In this document: piece by piece, positions 3 to 27,343 of the stretch
How positions within the stretch are numbered: the first letter of the stretch is position 1
How the letters are laid out: each line of letters opens with the position of its first letter
IMG/VR virus record: IMGVR_UViG_3300029798_000022
Coordinates: 1 to 29,474 of that record
DNA: 29,474 nt
Reading direction: 5' to 3' (one strand)
Source of the DNA: a virus
Notes under the pieces: generated by a model
What the model saw: the letters and a program-made list of their open reading frames with translations, nothing else
Database searches by the model: none
Told to the model about the DNA's origin: nothing
Translations under genes and position numbers: made by a program

Positions 3-122
3 TTTAGTGCAATGACCTATGCAAGCCTGATAGACCTTGCTAAGAACCATACAGCCCGTTTAAAAGTGGCTTATTGGGACTTACCTAACTTTGAAACAAA
101 GAGATTGGATAAACACAATTGA
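3..122 (+). CDS. C-terminal end of an unidentified protein (5' partial)
   Basis: Frame 3 is the only plus-strand frame open at the window edge; it gives about 39 residues ending in LKVAYWDLP and a short charged tail, then TGA at 120-122. The stop overlaps the TTG start of the next gene (TTGA), the same coupling seen throughout this phage, so this is very likely the end of a real upstream gene. An in-frame ATG at 12 could not by itself make a sensible protein. The VAYWD stretch weakly resembles ICYWDGK in the neighbouring glycosyltransferase, so it might be a related enzyme, but too little is visible to assign a function. Confidence 0.55.
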   Translation, partial: FSAMTYASLIDLAKNHTARLKVAYWDLPNFETKRLDKHN

Positions 123-838
123 AAACCGCAGCCGTAGTGACCGTAACCAATGGAAAACGCCCAGGTGAGTTATTAAATTGCCTTATGTCTGTTGCAAGCC
201 AACGAGGGATAACCCCTACGCATTACATTTTGTGTGACGGGGACTTTAATACCTTTGTCGAACTCAGAAGGCTTTACGCCAATGGTTGCGTAAAGATCTG
301 CTATTGGGATGGCAAGATTGGCGGTAACGGGTATGCGGGGCAACGCTGGTTAGCTGCTGCGCCTCAATTGATTACCGAGGATGTTACTTTCTTTTGTAAT
401 GACGATGATTGGTATTCTCCTGACCATGTAAAAAGTATCATGGATAAAATTGATGAGGGCTATGATTGGGCTTATAGCCTTAGATCAGTTCACGATAAGG
501 AGGGTAACTTTTTGTTTGATGACAACTGCGAAGCCCTCGGAGAGCTACACGATACTTGGAATATTCCTGGTCATCGCTTTGTGGACTGGTGTATGTGGGG
601 TATGAAAACAGAATACCTTAAACAACTCGCTATTTTGCTAAACCGCCCTGATCCTACGGTAGATCGCCAGTTCTATCAGGCAGCTACCCGTATTGTTCCC
701 AAGTTTGCCTCTACAAATAAGCACACCTTTCATTTTCGGATGGGTGGAAGCTGTGGCGTACAGCCTGAGTTCTTTATTGAAGGCAACAAGCGCATTTTGG
801 AGAAGTTTGACGGTAAATTGCCTTGGATCACTACATGA
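119..838 (+). CDS. GT-A fold glycosyltransferase (family 2-like)
   Basis: Predicted 239-residue cytosolic glycosyltransferase that would transfer a sugar from a nucleotide-sugar donor. The N-terminus (AAVVTVTNGKRPGELLNCL, residues 4-22) matches the first beta strand and helix of GT2 enzymes. The NDDDWYSPDHV segment (about 94-104) supplies the acidic DxD-type metal and donor site. There is no signal peptide or membrane segment. The start is TTG, because an in-frame TAA at 110-112 leaves no other upstream start, and it overlaps the preceding stop. The end overlaps the terL start at 835 (ATGA). A glycosyltransferase directly upstream of terL suggests modification of virion, DNA or host surface, but the acceptor is unknown. 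Confidence 0.7.
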   Translation: MKTAAVVTVTNGKRPGELLNCLMSVASQRGITPTHYILCDGDFNTFVELRRLYANGCVKICYWDGKIGGNGYAGQRWLAAAPQLITEDVTFFCNDDDWYSPDHVKSIMDKIDEGYDWAYSLRSVHDKEGNFLFDDNCEALGELHDTWNIPGHRFVDWCMWGMKTEYLKQLAILLNRPDPTVDRQFYQAATRIVPKFASTNKHTFHFRMGGSCGVQPEFFIEGNKRILEKFDGKLPWITT

Positions 839-13621: not shown

Positions 13622-14077
13622 ATGAAAGTTTGCAGATGTTGTAACAAAGAAAAAGATTTAAAAGATTTTTATGCAAGATACGCAAAATGTAAAAGTTGTT
13701 GCAATGAGGTTAAAAAGAAATATAGAGCATCGGAAATAGGTAAAGCAGTAAGAAAGCGAGAGGCTGTAAACGCAAGGATAACTGGAAAACAGCAAGTTAG
13801 ACAAAAGCGTTATGAGCAGACTGAAAAAGGTAAATTGCAACAAAAGAAATATGATGCAAAGCGTTACGAAGGAGTTGAAGGTAAAGCTAGAATGGCAGCC
13901 AAAAATGCTGTGAAATATGCGTTAAAAGTAGGAAAATTAGTTAAAGAACCCTGTTGGATTTGTGGAGAAAATATGTCAGAAGCGCATCACCCATCTTATG
14001 CAAAAGATATGCGGTTAGCCGTTACATGGCTATGTTCTGCCCATCACAACGCAATTCATAATCCAAGAGGGGTATAA
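13622..14077 (+). CDS. HNH endonuclease, probable free-standing homing enzyme
   Basis: 151 residues. An N-terminal Cys-rich knuckle (CRCC at 4-7; CKSC at 23-26) and a long very basic middle (30-110) precede the nuclease. The C-terminal part has C111-x2-C114 and C138-x2-H141 framing AHHPSY (121-126) and HHNAIHN (141-147), the layout of zinc-bound beta-beta-alpha HNH nucleases. It interrupts a row of fibre genes, is AT-rich and lysine-rich unlike them, and has its own ribosome-binding site in a hairpin. These are typical features of a mobile homing endonuclease. Its target site is unknown; a neighbouring gene is the usual case. Confidence 0.82.
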   Translation: MKVCRCCNKEKDLKDFYARYAKCKSCCNEVKKKYRASEIGKAVRKREAVNARITGKQQVRQKRYEQTEKGKLQQKKYDAKRYEGVEGKARMAAKNAVKYALKVGKLVKEPCWICGENMSEAHHPSYAKDMRLAVTWLCSAHHNAIHNPRGV

Positions 14078-22274: not shown

Positions 22275-22663
22275 TAGCGATTGCAATTGCAGTTCTGTTG
22301 ACATTTTTTGCTGGATGGATTGTAAACGGGTGGCGCTACGAAAAACAGATAGCTATTACCAAAATAGCAGAACAAAAAGTCATTCAAGAAAAACAACAAG
22401 AAAATCAAGCTCAGACCGACCTAATCAGGAAAGCTAAAGATGACCAAATTGCTTATATTAACAACCAGCTTGCTGATGCTCTTGTCAGCTTGCGCTCAAG
22501 ATCCAGTCGTAGTCAATACAGTGCCGTCAATGGACAAGACGGCACTGGGAGATCCCTTTCTTCCGAGGATGCAACTTTTCTTATCAGGGAAGCTACCAGA
22601 GCAGATCAAATAAGGGTTGCCCTAGATGCTTGTTATAAACAATATAATTCTGTAAACAAATAA
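22247..22663 (+). CDS. Rz: Inner-membrane spanin subunit (Rz-like)
   Basis: 138 residues. An N-terminal membrane anchor (FKLIAIAIAVLLTFFAGWIV, 7-26) is followed by a periplasmic coiled coil (EKQIAITKIAEQKVIQEKQQ and on, to about 80) and a C-terminal Cys (ALDACYKQY). This is the i-spanin pattern, spanning the periplasm to meet the o-spanin that is encoded in the +1 frame inside it. ATG 22247 overlaps the endolysin end by 28 bases; the ribosome-binding site is GGAGAGAGG. The ATG at 22240 belongs to another frame and was rejected. Confidence 0.85.
   Translation: MFGTIQFKLIAIAIAVLLTFFAGWIVNGWRYEKQIAITKIAEQKVIQEKQQENQAQTDLIRKAKDDQIAYINNQLADALVSLRSRSSRSQYSAVNGQDGTGRSLSSEDATFLIREATRADQIRVALDACYKQYNSVNK
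22440..22613 (+). CDS. Rz1: Outer-membrane lipoprotein spanin (Rz1-like), nested in Rz
   Basis: 57-residue ORF in the +1 frame within the Rz gene. Residues 1-18 are a classical lipoprotein signal: basic start MTK, hydrophobic LLILTTSLLMLL, then lipobox LLSAC with Cys18 as the acylated residue. The mature 40-residue part includes prolines (DPVV, VPSM, DPFLPR, LPEQ). Nested Rz1 within Rz is the established lambda arrangement, and finding a full lipobox in exactly the expected place makes the call strong despite the short length. Confidence 0.88.
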   Translation: MTKLLILTTSLLMLLSACAQDPVVVNTVPSMDKTALGDPFLPRMQLFLSGKLPEQIK

Positions 22664-22860
22664 TGGATAGCCATTACAAGTCACTGCTAAAAGCTGTAAC
22701 TTGGCGCATTACAGGCAGTCTTGATACCTTTGTGTTGTCTTGGATAGTGACAGGTCAAGTAAACCTAGCGTTTAGCATAGCCTTTATAGAGCTATTTTCT
22801 AAGATAGCCCTATATTGGTTACATGAACGCATCTGGTTAAAGATCAAGGTGCTGGAGTAA
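22663..22860 (+). CDS. DUF2061 family membrane protein
   Basis: 65 residues. KSLLKAVTWRITGSLDTFVLSWIVTGQVNLAFSI (about 6-40) and FSKIALYWLHERIW (45-58) are the recognisable pattern of DUF2061 membrane proteins, a small two-TM family whose function is not established. It is coupled by TAATG to Rz, so it is part of the lysis transcript. A holin or membrane-perturbing role is a reasonable inference. The last 17 bases overlap the glycosyltransferase on the other strand. Confidence 0.8.
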   Translation: MDSHYKSLLKAVTWRITGSLDTFVLSWIVTGQVNLAFSIAFIELFSKIALYWLHERIWLKIKVLE

Positions 22861-23623
22861 GCTGTCCTTCAAACAAGTAGCTTCCCAAGTGTCCTAAGTT
22901 AGCCCAAGGCGCTGCAAACACTTTTCCACCCGCTAATCTCCAGATACGGCAAAAGTGATAATCCTCAGATAACAAGCGATTGCTACCAGGCTCAATCGAG
23001 GTAGCAAAGTATTCATAAATCTGCTCTGCATGATTTAATTGACCTGAAAGATCTCCTACATCATTGGTGTAAGAAGGTACTTTTTTCTTGAGCTTCTCAA
23101 ACACCTTGCGTTTAATCAGCATAAAGCCAGTGCCACCATTAAAAATCTCTACTGGTTGATCTATGGGAACAGTAACTTCACCTGCATAGTCCACTAGGTT
23201 GACTACAAAACTACCTGTATGGCTTTTTAACTGGTCATTTGGCACACCTGCATCCATTGCTTGCTTGGTGCTATTCCAGTTAATTTCTTTTTTAGGGTAG
23301 ATACCGCAGATGATGTCTTTATCAGCCTGGATCATTCTTACAATGTCCTCTGGTCTGAATTTGATGTCTGCATCAATAAACATCAGATGAGTAGAGTTGG
23401 ACTTTAAGAAAGTATGCGCTAAAGCGTTTCTAGCCCTAGTAATAAGGCTCTCATTAAACATAAAGCTAAACTGAGTTTGGATTCCCGCTTGGCTTAGTAC
23501 GCTAATAGACTGCAATATTGACTGAGTGTAAAAGCCAGCACACATACCGCCATACATGGGGGTAGCAATAAAAATAATCGGTTGTACAGGTGCTTTAGGT
23601 GCTGCTTTCTTTTTAGTTGCCAT
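22844..23623 (-). CDS. GT-A glycosyltransferase (family 2-like)
   Basis: 259 residues, last gene of the leftward operon. After a Lys/Ala/Pro start, strand IIFIATPMYGGM (16-27) and then HLMFIDADIKFRPEDIVRM (79-97) supply the DxD site (D84/D86). SEDYHFCRIWRLAGGKVFAAPWANLGHLG (about 219-247) is a C-terminal block found in GT2-like phage enzymes. No signal or membrane segment. AAGGAAA precedes the ATG. It presumably transfers a sugar whose precursor may come from the upstream TPP and radical SAM enzymes; this link is inference. Confidence 0.8.
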   Translation of the reverse strand: MATKKKAAPKAPVQPIIFIATPMYGGMCAGFYTQSILQSISVLSQAGIQTQFSFMFNESLITRARNALAHTFLKSNSTHLMFIDADIKFRPEDIVRMIQADKDIICGIYPKKEINWNSTKQAMDAGVPNDQLKSHTGSFVVNLVDYAGEVTVPIDQPVEIFNGGTGFMLIKRKVFEKLKKKVPSYTNDVGDLSGQLNHAEQIYEYFATSIEPGSNRLLSEDYHFCRIWRLAGGKVFAAPWANLGHLGSYLFEGQLTPAP

Positions 23624-23631
23624 GATTTTCC

Positions 23632-24726
23632 TTAAATAAAGTTGTCGGTACTAGCGTTAATGACTTCGTTAATCAATATGTTCTTTCTGTCGTTAGAACA
23701 CTCGTGCATACAGGTTGTTTTAGCGTTAAATTTGTCCATGTATTCTTGTGTTTCAGGGCTAAACCATAGCCTATGAAAGCTACTGTCCTTGATAGATCCT
23801 ATACATCCTGACTTATCGTAGGCTTTGTTATGACAGGCATATACATTGAGGTCTGCACCGATGACGGGTACGGTCTGCATAATGAAGCACTTGTGATAGC
23901 TTCTAGTATGAGAGTGACTACTCCCAGGAGTAATGTTGTAAGTGCTATTAACACTAAACTTTTCAGTAGTAATAGCTTGTATGTTTTTAAGTTGTTCATT
24001 AACTTCCTCTGCTATCGGTTTATGGTATTCGTAGAAATCAGGTACATACATTGGACTGAAACGCACATTTTCAACACCGCTATCTTTTAATAACTGGGTT
24101 AGTCCCCCAAGATTTTTGTAATTGTTGCGATGCACAATATAATTAACAGCCAGATCACATCCCGCATCCTTCATTCCCGCAAAACCTCTTAGATTGCGGA
24201 TGATGCTATCAAAGCTCTTTTCTGGCACATTCCTAAACCGCTTCATTTCCTCGCCATTGGTGTAATCCATTGATACACGCACCCATTTGGCTTTGGCTAA
24301 GACTTCCGCCTTTTCTTTAACTAGGTTTTGCCCGTTGGTGATGATGGATAGGTCCATCTTGAGAGCTAGTGTTAAGCGCATAAAGTCTGCTATATCAGGG
24401 TGCATCAGTGGCTCTCCACCACCACTCCATGTAATAGCTTTAGTACCCATGTTAGCTAGGTCATGCAAGATCTCAATCATCTTATCTCTAGGGATGATGT
24501 CATCTTCCTTCATGTCCTCGTGCATACCGCTAACAATATGTTCTTCTTCTCCACCGTCTTTTACCCTAAAACCAGTGCTGTACACGCAAAAGAAGCAGCC
24601 ATGATTACAAAGGTTGATTGGCTTGACCCGAACATACACAGGCGCAGTAACCTTCCCCGCCTCAAAAGAAATCAGCTTTTCTGGATGGTGAAAGATCTTA
24701 AAATCGCTATATTTGTTGCTTTTCAC
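23632..24726 (-). CDS. Radical SAM enzyme with SPASM-like C-terminal cysteines
   Basis: 364 residues. The radical SAM motif CNHGCFFC (C40, C44, C47, i.e. Cx3Cx2C) would bind the [4Fe-4S] cluster that cleaves S-adenosylmethionine, and WSGGGEPLMHP (100-110) is the GGE motif. The C-terminal cysteines C280, C298, C308, C339 and C343 resemble a SPASM/twitch auxiliary cluster domain. GTG start at 24726, with AAGGA six bases upstream, overlaps the E1-beta stop (GTGA), so the two proteins should be made together. Substrate unknown. It could act on a peptide, sugar or nucleotide. Confidence 0.88.
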   Translation of the reverse strand: MKSNKYSDFKIFHHPEKLISFEAGKVTAPVYVRVKPINLCNHGCFFCVYSTGFRVKDGGEEEHIVSGMHEDMKEDDIIPRDKMIEILHDLANMGTKAITWSGGGEPLMHPDIADFMRLTLALKMDLSIITNGQNLVKEKAEVLAKAKWVRVSMDYTNGEEMKRFRNVPEKSFDSIIRNLRGFAGMKDAGCDLAVNYIVHRNNYKNLGGLTQLLKDSGVENVRFSPMYVPDFYEYHKPIAEEVNEQLKNIQAITTEKFSVNSTYNITPGSSHSHTRSYHKCFIMQTVPVIGADLNVYACHNKAYDKSGCIGSIKDSSFHRLWFSPETQEYMDKFNAKTTCMHECSNDRKNILINEVINASTDNFI

Positions 24727-25436
24727 GCTAAATCCTTATATTCGACCAACATTACGGAATCAAAAGTCTTGCTGGCAAGGTCATAAAACACCTCAATATC
24801 ACCCTCGTCTTTGAGTTTCCACACAGGAAAACTGACCATTTTGCGTATTCCATCGGTTAAATCTTGAGTATGAGTAGCGCCTGTATAAAGAGGCTTCTTG
24901 GTATTGCCCACAATGCAACGAATAATGACTTTTGGGTGAAACTCACCATGAGAGATTTTGGCTATTTTGTCTAAATGGTTGACCATTGCATCCATTGCGT
25001 TCATTAAGAAGTCCATACGCTCAATAAAGACCACTGGGAGGTATCCCTTGAGTGATAGTCCTATTGCAAACCCCATCATCAAATTCTCTGCTACAGGCAT
25101 CTCAATAATCTGACTATCTGCCACTTCTTTTAGCGTACCTAATGCTCTGCCTTTTTTAAGACCGTAGCCAATAAAACGCACTTGAGGGTTTTGGGCTAAT
25201 TTGGTATTGGCTTTAATGAGTTCTTCTTTGTAATTCATATTTGCTTGAAAATACCAATTTTTAAAATCATCTTCGTCATACCAATTTTTTGTTTGTCCCT
25301 TACGAATTAACTTTGGTAATGGTCTATTTTTACTTGCCGTAACCTTTCCTTTTAAACTTAATAAAGGAATTTTTAATTCTTCTGCCAATTCCTTTAAATT
25401 TTTTAAAGGTTTTCTGTAAACCTTTTCTTGGCTCAT
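24723..25436 (-). CDS. HTH domain fused to E1-beta/transketolase pyrimidine-domain protein
   Basis: 237 residues from ATG 25436 (CAGAAGGA, a strong ribosome-binding site, precedes it). Residues 10-64 look like an excisionase/MerR-type helix-turn-helix (LKELAEELKIPLLSLKGKV, ending WYDEDDFKNWY). From M67 onward it is a TPP E1-beta-like pyrimidine-binding domain: PVAENLMMGFAIGLSLKGYLP (catalytic Glu117), MDFLMNAMDAMVNHLDKIAK and ATHTQDLTDGIRKMVSFPVW. The usual C-terminal transketolase domain (about 130 residues) is missing. It should pair with the E1-alpha-like protein at 25839. The in-frame HTH is odd. Confidence 0.8.
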   Translation of the reverse strand: MSQEKVYRKPLKNLKELAEELKIPLLSLKGKVTASKNRPLPKLIRKGQTKNWYDEDDFKNWYFQANMNYKEELIKANTKLAQNPQVRFIGYGLKKGRALGTLKEVADSQIIEMPVAENLMMGFAIGLSLKGYLPVVFIERMDFLMNAMDAMVNHLDKIAKISHGEFHPKVIIRCIVGNTKKPLYTGATHTQDLTDGIRKMVSFPVWKLKDEGDIEVFYDLASKTFDSVMLVEYKDLA

Positions 25437-25552
25437 TTTCTTTTCCTTCTGTACCTTCTTCTCTCTATATCTTTTTGGATAATGATTCCACCAAAGTAAA
25501 TTAAGACGGCTAAGTAAAGTGCAATTAAACATCCGTAGATAATTAAGTCCAT
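25433..25552 (-). CDS. 39-residue single-pass membrane peptide
   Basis: ATG at 25552 overlaps the stop of the 96-residue gene (TAATG), and its TGA overlaps the ATG of the E1-beta gene (ATGA), so it is locked between both neighbours. Residues about 2-25 are one hydrophobic segment (IIYGCLIALYLAVLIYFGGI), and the end is very basic (ERRRYRRKRK). It is short, but the double overlap argues for a real gene. Possibly a membrane tether or lysis-type peptide. Confidence 0.65.
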   Translation of the reverse strand: MDLIIYGCLIALYLAVLIYFGGIIIQKDIERRRYRRKRK

Positions 25553-25842
25553 TATTTCTCGTGTGCCTTTCTTAGTATTGCTTGTTCAACAGCCCTACCT
25601 AAACCACACTTAATTCCTGACCAATCTTTTTCGTAAATGCTAATCATTTCCTCATCTGTTAATTGTTCTTTTACTGGATGGGTATAGCTAACTACTGTTG
25701 GCTCTATCTTTGTATTAGTAATAGATTGATATGGGTTTACTGGATGGGTATAGAGTGGTATGTAGTTAAATACGCTATCAGGCTTGTCTATGTATAAAAC
25801 ATACTCTCCATTTTTAACCCAGCCGTATGGTTTATTGTTCAT
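25552..25842 (-). CDS. Conserved phage hypothetical with YTHPV/LTDEE motifs
   Basis: 96 residues. Contains two LYTHPV/SYTHPV copies (near residues 31 and 54) and then LTDEEMISIYEKDW ending in a helix GRAVEQAILRKAHEK. The YTHP-plus-LTDEE pattern is common in small phage proteins of unknown function. It follows E1-alpha by an ATGA overlap (stop 25839, start 25842) with AAGGATG as ribosome-binding site. It does not look like a missing part of the TPP enzyme. Confidence 0.75.
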   Translation of the reverse strand: MNNKPYGWVKNGEYVLYIDKPDSVFNYIPLYTHPVNPYQSITNTKIEPTVVSYTHPVKEQLTDEEMISIYEKDWSGIKCGLGRAVEQAILRKAHEK

Positions 25843-26456
25843 TTAACATCCTTAAAAACAATATGCTTTTTAGTGCCGTTGCCAGCATGAGGATAAGTAG
25901 GATCGTAGTTGTTGCGAATTACGCACCCTGGCAATCTAAATCTAAATTGATAAGGCAAGCGTTCCTCTAGCGTTGAATCTACGCTACGGTTGTTATCTTC
26001 AATAATGAATGTGCAAGGTAAATCATGCCCTTGGACCATCATTACCGCCTCATAAAAGTGTCCTTGCTCCTCTGCGCCATCACCTAAGAAGCACCAGACC
26101 CGATTAGAGCTGCCTTCTTCTTTAAGTGCGTAAGCTACACCCGATGCTATTGCGCAAGTGCCAGAAAGAATACTTGAAGTAAAAAAATGACGATCCCTGT
26201 CAAACACGAACATAGAGTTGCCATCAAGAATCTTTGCAAGAAGCTCATTTCTGGGAACTCCAGATAAAAGAGCATGATGATGATTGCGGTGAGTGCTAAA
26301 AATCCAATCCCCATCTTTAACCTCCTTAAACAAGTCAATTAAAAAGTCCTCATTACCACCTGATAAGTGGATAAGGTAAGGCAAATCACCCGCTTCCCAG
26401 TGAGCTGCCACTTGGTTTTCAAAATCAATAAGATCTTGTTTAGTGCAATAGTTCAT
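25839..26456 (-). CDS. TPP-binding E1-alpha-like (PP domain) subunit
   Basis: 205 residues. The thiamine-diphosphate motif is clear: FLGDGAEEQG (GDG at 125-127), a 27-residue gap, then EDNN (NN at 155-156), the GDG-x27-NN pattern of pyruvate-dehydrogenase-type alpha subunits. FSTHRNHHHALLSGVP (53-68) resembles the E1-alpha YRgHG region with active-site histidines. Usual E1-alpha proteins are 320-400 residues; this one ends about 50 residues after the NN motif, so it is a reduced PP domain. It overlaps the nuclease stop and the 96-residue gene start. With the E1-beta-like protein it should form a TPP enzyme. Confidence 0.85.
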   Translation of the reverse strand: MNYCTKQDLIDFENQVAAHWEAGDLPYLIHLSGGNEDFLIDLFKEVKDGDWIFSTHRNHHHALLSGVPRNELLAKILDGNSMFVFDRDRHFFTSSILSGTCAIASGVAYALKEEGSSNRVWCFLGDGAEEQGHFYEAVMMVQGHDLPCTFIIEDNNRSVDSTLEERLPYQFRFRLPGCVIRNNYDPTYPHAGNGTKKHIVFKDVK

Positions 26457-26890
26457 TCATACTCTTTCAAAATCGTTGCATTTTTAAAAAGCAGTCCCTT
26501 AGGCACTAAAAATGCTTTTTTCTTAGCTGTATCTCCAGTTCCAACAAATTCACGATATTCCAATTTATTCAAAAAAATGCAATTGACAATATCCATCGGC
26601 TTAATCATGGCAAAAACATTGTCATCATAAAAAGCCCAAAAATCAGCTTTAGTAGTAATCAACGCAGAAGGTTTCCCAAACATTTCAATTTCAACCACAA
26701 TGTTTCCTGTTTGATTGCTCATAGAATCGTATTTCACTTCTACAGATTTATTGATCTCTGGAATCCAGATGTCATAACCTTTAAATTTATGAATCATGCT
26801 TGCCGATTGGTATTTTTGCCTTAATCTTTTAAGCAATTTTTCCTCAATCGTAAAACCTCTTTCAAGGTCAACTGCAAAAGTATTAGACAT
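26453..26890 (-). CDS. PD-(D/E)XK family endonuclease
   Basis: 145 residues from ATG 26890, which has AGGGAT upstream; the upstream GTG start (26935) adds a short unlike segment. Core motif: KGYDIWIPEINKSVEVKYDS (37-56) gives D40, E51 and K53 in the PD-(D/E)XK arrangement. TGNIVVEIEMFGKPSALITTKADFWAFYDD (61-90) is a block seen in phage nucleases of this fold. Coming after exonuclease, annealase, SSB and RusA, it probably takes part in recombination or DNA processing. Its stop overlaps the E1-alpha start. Confidence 0.75.
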   Translation of the reverse strand: MSNTFAVDLERGFTIEEKLLKRLRQKYQSASMIHKFKGYDIWIPEINKSVEVKYDSMSNQTGNIVVEIEMFGKPSALITTKADFWAFYDDNVFAMIKPMDIVNCIFLNKLEYREFVGTGDTAKKKAFLVPKGLLFKNATILKEYE

Positions 26891-26951
26891 AGTTATCCCT
26901 ATAAATAGTGGTGAGCTGCTCAGAAAGACCCTCACCGTAGTCCACCTAACT

Positions 26952-26973
26952 ATTTGGCTAATTTACGCCAAAT
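26952..26973 (-). promoter_or_regulatory. Inverted repeat at the RusA 3' end
   Basis: A perfect 7-bp inverted repeat ATTTGGC/GCCAAAT around an 8-base loop straddles the RusA stop codon. On the minus-strand RNA it is not followed by a U-tract, so it is not a clear intrinsic terminator. It may stabilise the upstream RNA or separate RusA from the nuclease and metabolic genes. The rest of the 72-base gap also contains a GGTGAG/CTCACC inverted repeat. Confidence 0.35.
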
Positions 26974-27343
26974 TCGTATCTGAACTTACGGAGTGTTCTT
27001 CCATTCGGTCAATCATTACTACGCATCCACCACCTTTGATTGGTAAACCTCTTTCAATAGTGATTCTCTGCACGCTAACATCGTCTGTATATACGATCCC
27101 GATAAGTGCATCCAATATTGGTTTGACACAGTTATCAATGTCCATAAGTTTTTTTGAGCGTGGTCTAAGGATGATGTCAACCCATACTGGGCTATCTCCA
27201 AAGCTGGATACTCGGTATTCTTTGCAATAAGCTGCCACATCATTTTTAAAATCCCTTCCCCGTTGGCTGATAAACCTACGATGTCCACTAGCGATCCAGT
27301 AGTTATTGATTGAGGGTGGATAAGGTAGGTTTAAATGAATCAT
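26963..27343 (-). CDS. rusA: RusA-type Holliday junction resolvase
   Basis: 126 residues. Family pattern throughout: LPYPPSINNYW (6-16), RRFISQRGRDFKNDV (22-36), then MDIDNCVKPILDALIGIVYTDD (67-88), where D68, D70, the KP lysine K74 and D87/D88 correspond to the catalytic acidic residues and lysine of RusA. It resolves four-way DNA junctions formed during recombination-dependent replication. Its ATG overlaps the stop of the secreted peptide gene (TAATG). Confidence 0.93.
   Translation of the reverse strand: MIHLNLPYPPSINNYWIASGHRRFISQRGRDFKNDVAAYCKEYRVSSFGDSPVWVDIILRPRSKKLMDIDNCVKPILDALIGIVYTDDVSVQRITIERGLPIKGGGCVVMIDRMEEHSVSSDTNLA

Follow-up and report, generated by a model that had tools for sequence, protein, structure and literature searches.

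Phages are already known to carry glycosyltransferases and sugar genes. In bacteria, the E1-like pair AviB1/AviB2 (orthosomycins) and YerE (yersiniose) use thiamine pyrophosphate (TPP) to attach two-carbon branches to sugars, and phage systems that hypermodify DNA using TET enzymes and glycosyltransferases are also known; both are taken here as leads only. We know of no radical S-adenosylmethionine (SAM) enzymes of the BtrN, BlsE, DesII or MoaA type in phages. Cyanophages carry fused E1 proteins, annotated as 'transketolase central region', in clusters of the lipopolysaccharide (LPS) type, and the clusters bearing them have been described as LPS clusters (PMC3037559). Here we analyze a gene module in a virus record of 29,474 nucleotides (IMG/VR IMGVR_UViG_3300029798_000022, the whole of which is called the window), in which the two halves of a TPP enzyme are encoded with a radical SAM enzyme and a glycosyltransferase. 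We give an even chance to the proposal that these genes form a phage module, with the TPP and radical SAM enzymes producing an unusual sugar unit that phage glycosyltransferases use.

A preliminary description of the window, made from its sequence, had placed four such genes in one minus-strand operon, and Pfam, PHROGs and PDB profile searches confirm this arrangement:

25839..26456, minus strand: E1-alpha-like TPP (PP-domain) subunit, 205 aa; Pfam E1_dh 4.6e-20, alpha half of phrog_34187, alignment
24723..25436, minus strand: E1-beta-like TPP (Pyr-domain) subunit; Pfam Transket_pyr 3.5e-8, beta half of phrog_34187, alignment, overlap chain
23632..24726, minus strand: radical SAM enzyme with CX3CX2C and a C-terminal twitch/SPASM-type domain; Pfam Radical_SAM 2.6e-18, SPASM 1.9e-5
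22844..23623, minus strand: GT-A-type glycosyltransferase of the phrog_1574 family with D-x-D; phrog_1574 2.3e-48, AlphaFold model

That these genes work together is suggested by their distribution. Three alignment-based scans of IMG/VR gave 280 relatives of E1-alpha, 315 of E1-beta and 106 of the radical SAM enzyme; the best 80 of each were fetched, and loci sharing an identical 1.5-kb stretch were merged, leaving 108 distinct sequence groups. Rather than being scattered singly without partners, E1-alpha, E1-beta and the radical SAM enzyme are found together in 78 of the 108 (a filtered count of 72, plus six groups with E1-beta masked by an overlapping open reading frame (ORF) but seen in the loci). 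E1 is accompanied by a Zn-dependent dehydrogenase (MDR), with no relative of the window radical SAM enzyme, in a further 13, and no such relative was found in the large MDR-type phage records that were searched whole; the rest are mostly truncated contigs or generic E1 proteins. The three genes come in at least three orders: E1-alpha, E1-beta, radical SAM enzyme, glycosyltransferase, as in the window; GT2, GT9L, E1-beta, radical SAM enzyme, E1-alpha, behind the major capsid gene, a position that the cluster takes in several phage lineages; and fused E1 with the radical SAM enzyme. Arrangements with MDR include GT9L, E1-beta, MDR, E1-alpha, glycosyltransferase, and fused E1 with MDR. The glycosyltransferase-type genes GT2 and GT9L travel with the module in phages, and a 735-kb phage (LR756501) carries E1-beta, radical SAM enzyme and E1-alpha in that order. 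Many lake and other aquatic phages carry the module. Profile hidden Markov model searches and inspection of neighborhoods thus uphold the module identities and show co-occurrence of the three genes across unrelated phages and gene orders. On a 230-kb viral contig (L113, 8882-11059) a split transketolase (Transketolase_N 1.5e-14, Transket_pyr 1.9e-18) replaces E1 beside a radical SAM protein 54% identical to that of the window, so the partner of the radical SAM enzyme appears to be a TPP enzyme as such.

Selection was estimated from 22 window-type modules as the ratio of nonsynonymous to synonymous substitution (dN/dS). All four genes are under purifying selection, with median values of 0.117 for E1-alpha, 0.156 for E1-beta, 0.109 for the radical SAM enzyme and 0.079 for the glycosyltransferase, compared with 0.200 for RecT. 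Together with the co-occurrence in 78 of 108 groups, this rules out chance grouping. The same observations bear on the idea that E1, the radical SAM enzyme and the glycosyltransferase are independent morons that sit in one operon and share no pathway. The glycosyltransferase is indeed separable, and the space between E1-alpha and E1-beta freely takes up small ORFs; however, the three enzymes persist through several gene orders and unrelated phages, the 735-kb phage included, and selection acts on every gene, so we regard independent morons as very improbable.

The motifs on which the preliminary description relied hold across the families. GDG-x27-NN (or ND) is kept in 87 of 91 E1-alpha homologues, and the PVAEN signature with its catalytic Glu belongs to a pattern, E-[MT]-P-V/L/I-A-E, that is kept in 89 of 96 E1-beta homologues, with E51 invariant in the alignment; the E1-beta core also carries the His of GATH. 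In PDB profile searches E1-alpha matches the E1-alpha chain of pyruvate dehydrogenase (PDH) at 1.8e-17 and E1-beta a 2-oxo acid dehydrogenase beta chain at 6.6e-14. Both are compact. E1-alpha is about 110 aa shorter than its PDH counterpart, and the conserved E1-beta core (24723-25238, 171 aa, with homology starting at the Met at 25238) stops after the Pyr domain, as against about 325 aa in PDH beta, with no Transketolase_C match and hence no C-terminal transketolase domain. A model of a fused E1 relative of 401 aa (pLDDT 87.7, pTM 0.91) resembles transketolase, 1-deoxy-D-xylulose 5-phosphate (DXP) synthase and PDH-beta in Foldseek (best E 2e-13). Because the motifs are kept across the family and the fold is present, TPP binding is predicted to be retained in these proteins, and loss of TPP function, on which the preliminary description had let its pathway stand or fall, is ruled out by motifs and fold. 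The genes listed for the window and for its relative G010 include no recognisable E2 or E3 partner, although no family search was aimed at them, and a host E2 could serve.

As far as sampled, the E1 family is mainly viral, since cellular relatives are few: the matches listed for 85,000 scanned species genomes include at least six close relatives of E1-alpha in cells, and 395 and 380 genomes of two phyla, searched at E 1e-30, held no family member other than those of the two starting genomes. The rare cellular copies mostly lie in clusters of the surface-polysaccharide type, with GT2, GT9-like, PMT_2 or heptose-type genes or with additional radical SAM genes. This setting, and that of the fused E1 in cyanophage clusters with epimerases, a PfkB kinase, nucleotidyltransferases and phosphoheptose isomerase, would suit a remodelling of the host envelope, in which the product is added to O-antigen or core of the LPS, or to capsule, and blocks superinfecting phages. 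Yet the module contains no recognised membrane flippase or GtrA-type gene, sugar-nucleotide genes are not seen in the small phages, and serotype-conversion cassettes do not typically lie next to genes for recombination or capsid; we consider such remodelling unlikely.

The radical SAM enzyme has the Cx3Cx2C motif reported in the preliminary description, and 81 of 83 homologues keep it. The five late cysteines reported alongside it are all present in the window protein, but only four are invariant in the alignment, C280-x17-C298 and C339-x3-C343, C308 being variable; the label of a SPASM protein with five cysteines was accordingly replaced. The seven auxiliary cysteines of a full SPASM domain with its two clusters are not matched by these four, which instead point to a twitch-like C-terminal domain with one auxiliary cluster. 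The nearest solved enzymes in PDB profile searches are BlsE (1.2e-10), MoaA, DesII and BtrN, and they thus include enzymes that act on nucleoside sugars, sugars and aminocyclitols (BlsE, DesII, BtrN). A second, short radical SAM protein is encoded in one MDR-type E1 cluster (L154:10695-11486). Just behind the major capsid gene of MW202801 (L004:10592-16652) lie a distant radical SAM gene, two glycosyltransferases, a PhyH-type dioxygenase, a methyltransferase and a NodB-like gene.

In the pathway proposed here, E1-alpha and E1-beta would form a minimal TPP enzyme, consisting of the two TPP-binding domains only, which would transfer a two-carbon unit, acyl or ketol, to an aldehyde or ketone of the sugar type, by analogy with transketolase and with E1-like or acetolactate-synthase-like sugar enzymes. 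The radical SAM/twitch enzyme would act at a C-H or C-OH group of the same metabolite, by oxidation, epimerisation or dehydration; in other phages the Zn-dependent dehydrogenase may perform this step. Glycosyltransferases, among them the adjacent phrog_1574 enzyme, would attach the product. Domains, catalytic motifs, co-occurrence and selection are observed, whereas reaction, order of steps, substrate and acceptor are inferred. The acceptor is most likely a glycan on the virion or the host surface. It is a tentative but tenable extension, which we hold at somewhat below an even chance, that a mainly viral TPP family and its radical SAM partner assemble a sugar-like group that is carbon-branched or new in some other way, and that phage glycosyltransferases, by adding it to virion, envelope or DNA, create a modification not yet described in any virus.

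The assignment of the glycosyltransferase to the GT-A type stands and rests mainly on a predicted fold of moderate confidence (AlphaFold mean pLDDT 73): Pfam matches to Glycos_transf_2 and Anp1 are sub-threshold only, Foldseek matches to GT-A enzymes are at E 4e-7 and weaker, and D84 and D86 of the D-x-D motif are invariant in the alignment. These Foldseek matches are diverse (COLGALT1, GtrB, GlfT2 and the PBCV-1 capsid glycosyltransferase, acting on protein, lipid-carrier and capsid), and with a model of this quality no specific donor or acceptor could be named; a lead to STIV A197 was dropped as not significant (E 0.13).

The location of the glycosyltransferase bears on a different acceptor, namely DNA. 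On this reading it would glycosylate a modified base of the phage genome, for which the TPP and radical SAM enzymes would either make a sugar-like donor or modify the base. The window module lies inside the early operon of the minus strand, together with genes for RecE, RecT, an SSB-like and a RusA-like protein (Pfam, PHROGs), and the glycosyltransferase is thus encoded in a DNA replication/recombination operon, as in phage DNA hypermodification systems. Other members of phrog_1574 directly precede the sliding clamp in phiM12, phiN3 and RHph_I1_18, lie near it in DLP_6, Cr30 and OC, and follow RecT/Erf, Exo, SSB or RusA in small phages. Tet_JBP dioxygenases are found in DLP_6 and Cr30, the DLP_6 copy about 1.5 kb from the glycosyltransferase. 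However, these two are the only ones of 11 named phages with the glycosyltransferase family in which Tet_JBP reaches the cut-off; nine module-bearing relatives of 33-40 kb, whose records may be incomplete, gave no match to the Tet_JBP or thymidylate-synthase/hydroxymethylase families (PF12851 and PF00303), and neither family was found in MW202753 and MW202825; G010 has no C5-cytosine methylase; and in other lineages the three enzymes sit behind the capsid gene with other glycosyltransferases. The location of the glycosyltransferase family and the dioxygenases of DLP_6 and Cr30 therefore keep DNA as a real rival acceptor, although we judge it rather unlikely. The dioxygenase domain of Stenotrophomonas phage DLP_6 (W01, KU682439, 27833-28279) is contained in a gene annotated 'SNF2 DNA repair protein', near the phrog_1574 glycosyltransferase.

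Several points weigh against the proposed pathway. The glycosyltransferase occurs without the other three genes in close relatives, following RusA or recombination genes, and the presence of its family in replication/recombination operons of several unrelated phages fits DNA better than the virion. In the window neither a sugar-nucleotide gene nor any other gene for a substrate could be recognised, so the host would have to supply it. The name 'glycosyltransferase' for GT9L, a conserved protein in the module, is a guess because it has no Pfam, PHROG or PDB relative. Finally, similarity to the window decided which loci were fetched, and this biases the counts towards close relatives. The dedicated biosynthetic route of the preliminary description, with a product attached to envelope, virion or DNA, is nonetheless well supported as a route by the persistence of the three enzymes across unrelated phages and gene orders and by the accompanying glycosyltransferases; what must be qualified is that the E1 pair lacks the C-terminal domain of a true E1 or transketolase and that the glycosyltransferase is separable.

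The neighbors of the four genes, read from the same 29.5-kb record, are those of a tailed phage: plus-strand terminase, portal, major head protein and structural genes, then lysozyme (Pfam, PHROGs). The further features of the module and its surroundings are:

26963..27343, minus strand: RusA-like resolvase; Pfam RusA 1.2e-11; heads the module and marks the recombination operon
26453..26935, minus strand: upstream gene, phrog_13596, function unknown; translationally coupled to E1-alpha via overlap
25552..25842, minus strand: 96-aa ORF between E1-alpha and E1-beta; from the ORF list
25433..25552, minus strand: 39-aa ORF with a single hydrophobic segment, between E1-alpha and E1-beta; without family match
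25239..25436, minus strand: N-terminal extension of E1-beta, 66 aa, unrelated to E1; found in the window only
119..838, plus strand: second glycosyltransferase (GT2), adjoining the terminase gene; Pfam Glycos_transf_2 2e-6; kept in module-bearing relatives

Downstream of RusA the order is the gene of unknown function, E1-alpha, the 96-aa ORF, the 39-aa ORF, E1-beta, the radical SAM gene and the glycosyltransferase. Start and stop codons overlap without a break from the first of these to the radical SAM gene (26453-26456, 25839-25842, 25552 as a single base, 25433-25436 and 24723-24726), and 8 bases separate the latter from the glycosyltransferase, just as the preliminary description had read them; the gene at 26453-26935, which it took for a nuclease, matches no nuclease family, and the two small ORFs were absent from its account. 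The overlap chain implies a start of E1-beta at 25436, which is most likely the correct one, not 25532. The 66-residue extension that this adds matches nothing in Pfam, PHROGs or the loci that were fetched. In close relatives the small ORFs are often missing and E1-alpha and E1-beta overlap directly by 4 bases, and some relatives hold different small ORFs there, so the gap (25433-25842) appears to be a hotspot for insertion of variable small ORFs. Relatives of the window carry GT2 beside the terminase, and their early operon begins with GT9L; they therefore hold the same set of parts, dispersed. In the early region of the module-bearing relative G010, an Amidoligase_2 gene precedes a gene resembling class II glutamine amidotransferases (L209:10870-13217). 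In the window, a DUF2061 membrane protein gene (22663-22860) follows the lysis genes, and its 3' end overlaps that of the glycosyltransferase gene on the opposite strand; an endonuclease-like gene (phrog_2340, 13622-14077) lies among the structural genes.

The preliminary description knew of no phage system with this combination, and searches for a phage module of E1 and a radical SAM enzyme found no relevant publication; the pieces were known before, as fused E1 in cyanophage LPS-type clusters, and it is the combination with a radical SAM enzyme for which no description was found. The pairing of a compact TPP enzyme with a radical SAM partner in many phages that are unrelated and mostly small suggests that viruses maintain a carbon-bond-making chemistry of their own for decoration; finding the product would reveal a new glycan or base made by a pair of small enzymes and would make the roles of unexplained phage glycosyltransferases testable. 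Among known systems, serotype conversion (gtrABC) is not matched, as no GtrA flippase or GtrB Pfam match occurs among the module proteins scanned. The TET/glycosyltransferase hypermodification systems resemble the module's glycosyltransferase family in the proximity of a Tet_JBP gene in DLP_6 and its presence in the same region of Cr30, and differ in that the module-bearing relatives tested have no Tet_JBP or hydroxymethylase family. BtrN, BlsE, DesII and MoaA share the radical SAM core, and the first two late cysteines align in register with auxiliary cysteines of BtrN, a match not significant on its own, whereas overall similarity to the window enzyme is weak (E 1e-10 to 4e-3). The cyanophage LPS-type clusters (S-SM2, P-TIM68) likewise combine fused E1 (phrog_34187) with glycosyltransferases and sugar enzymes, but they are large and have their own sugar-nucleotide genes, the Zn-dependent dehydrogenase adjoins E1, and no relative of the window radical SAM enzyme was found in those regions. 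As in PDH and branched-chain 2-oxoacid dehydrogenase E1, the PP and Pyr TPP domains of the module are divided between an alpha and a beta chain, and it has the GDG-x27-NN motif and the catalytic Glu and His of beta, whereas both its chains are shorter, beta lacks the C-terminal domain, and the two are often fused in one chain. That domain also sets it apart from transketolase and DXP synthase, and in sequence it is closer to E1; with these enzymes it nevertheless shares the fold, and on L113 it is a split transketolase that takes the place of E1 beside the radical SAM enzyme.

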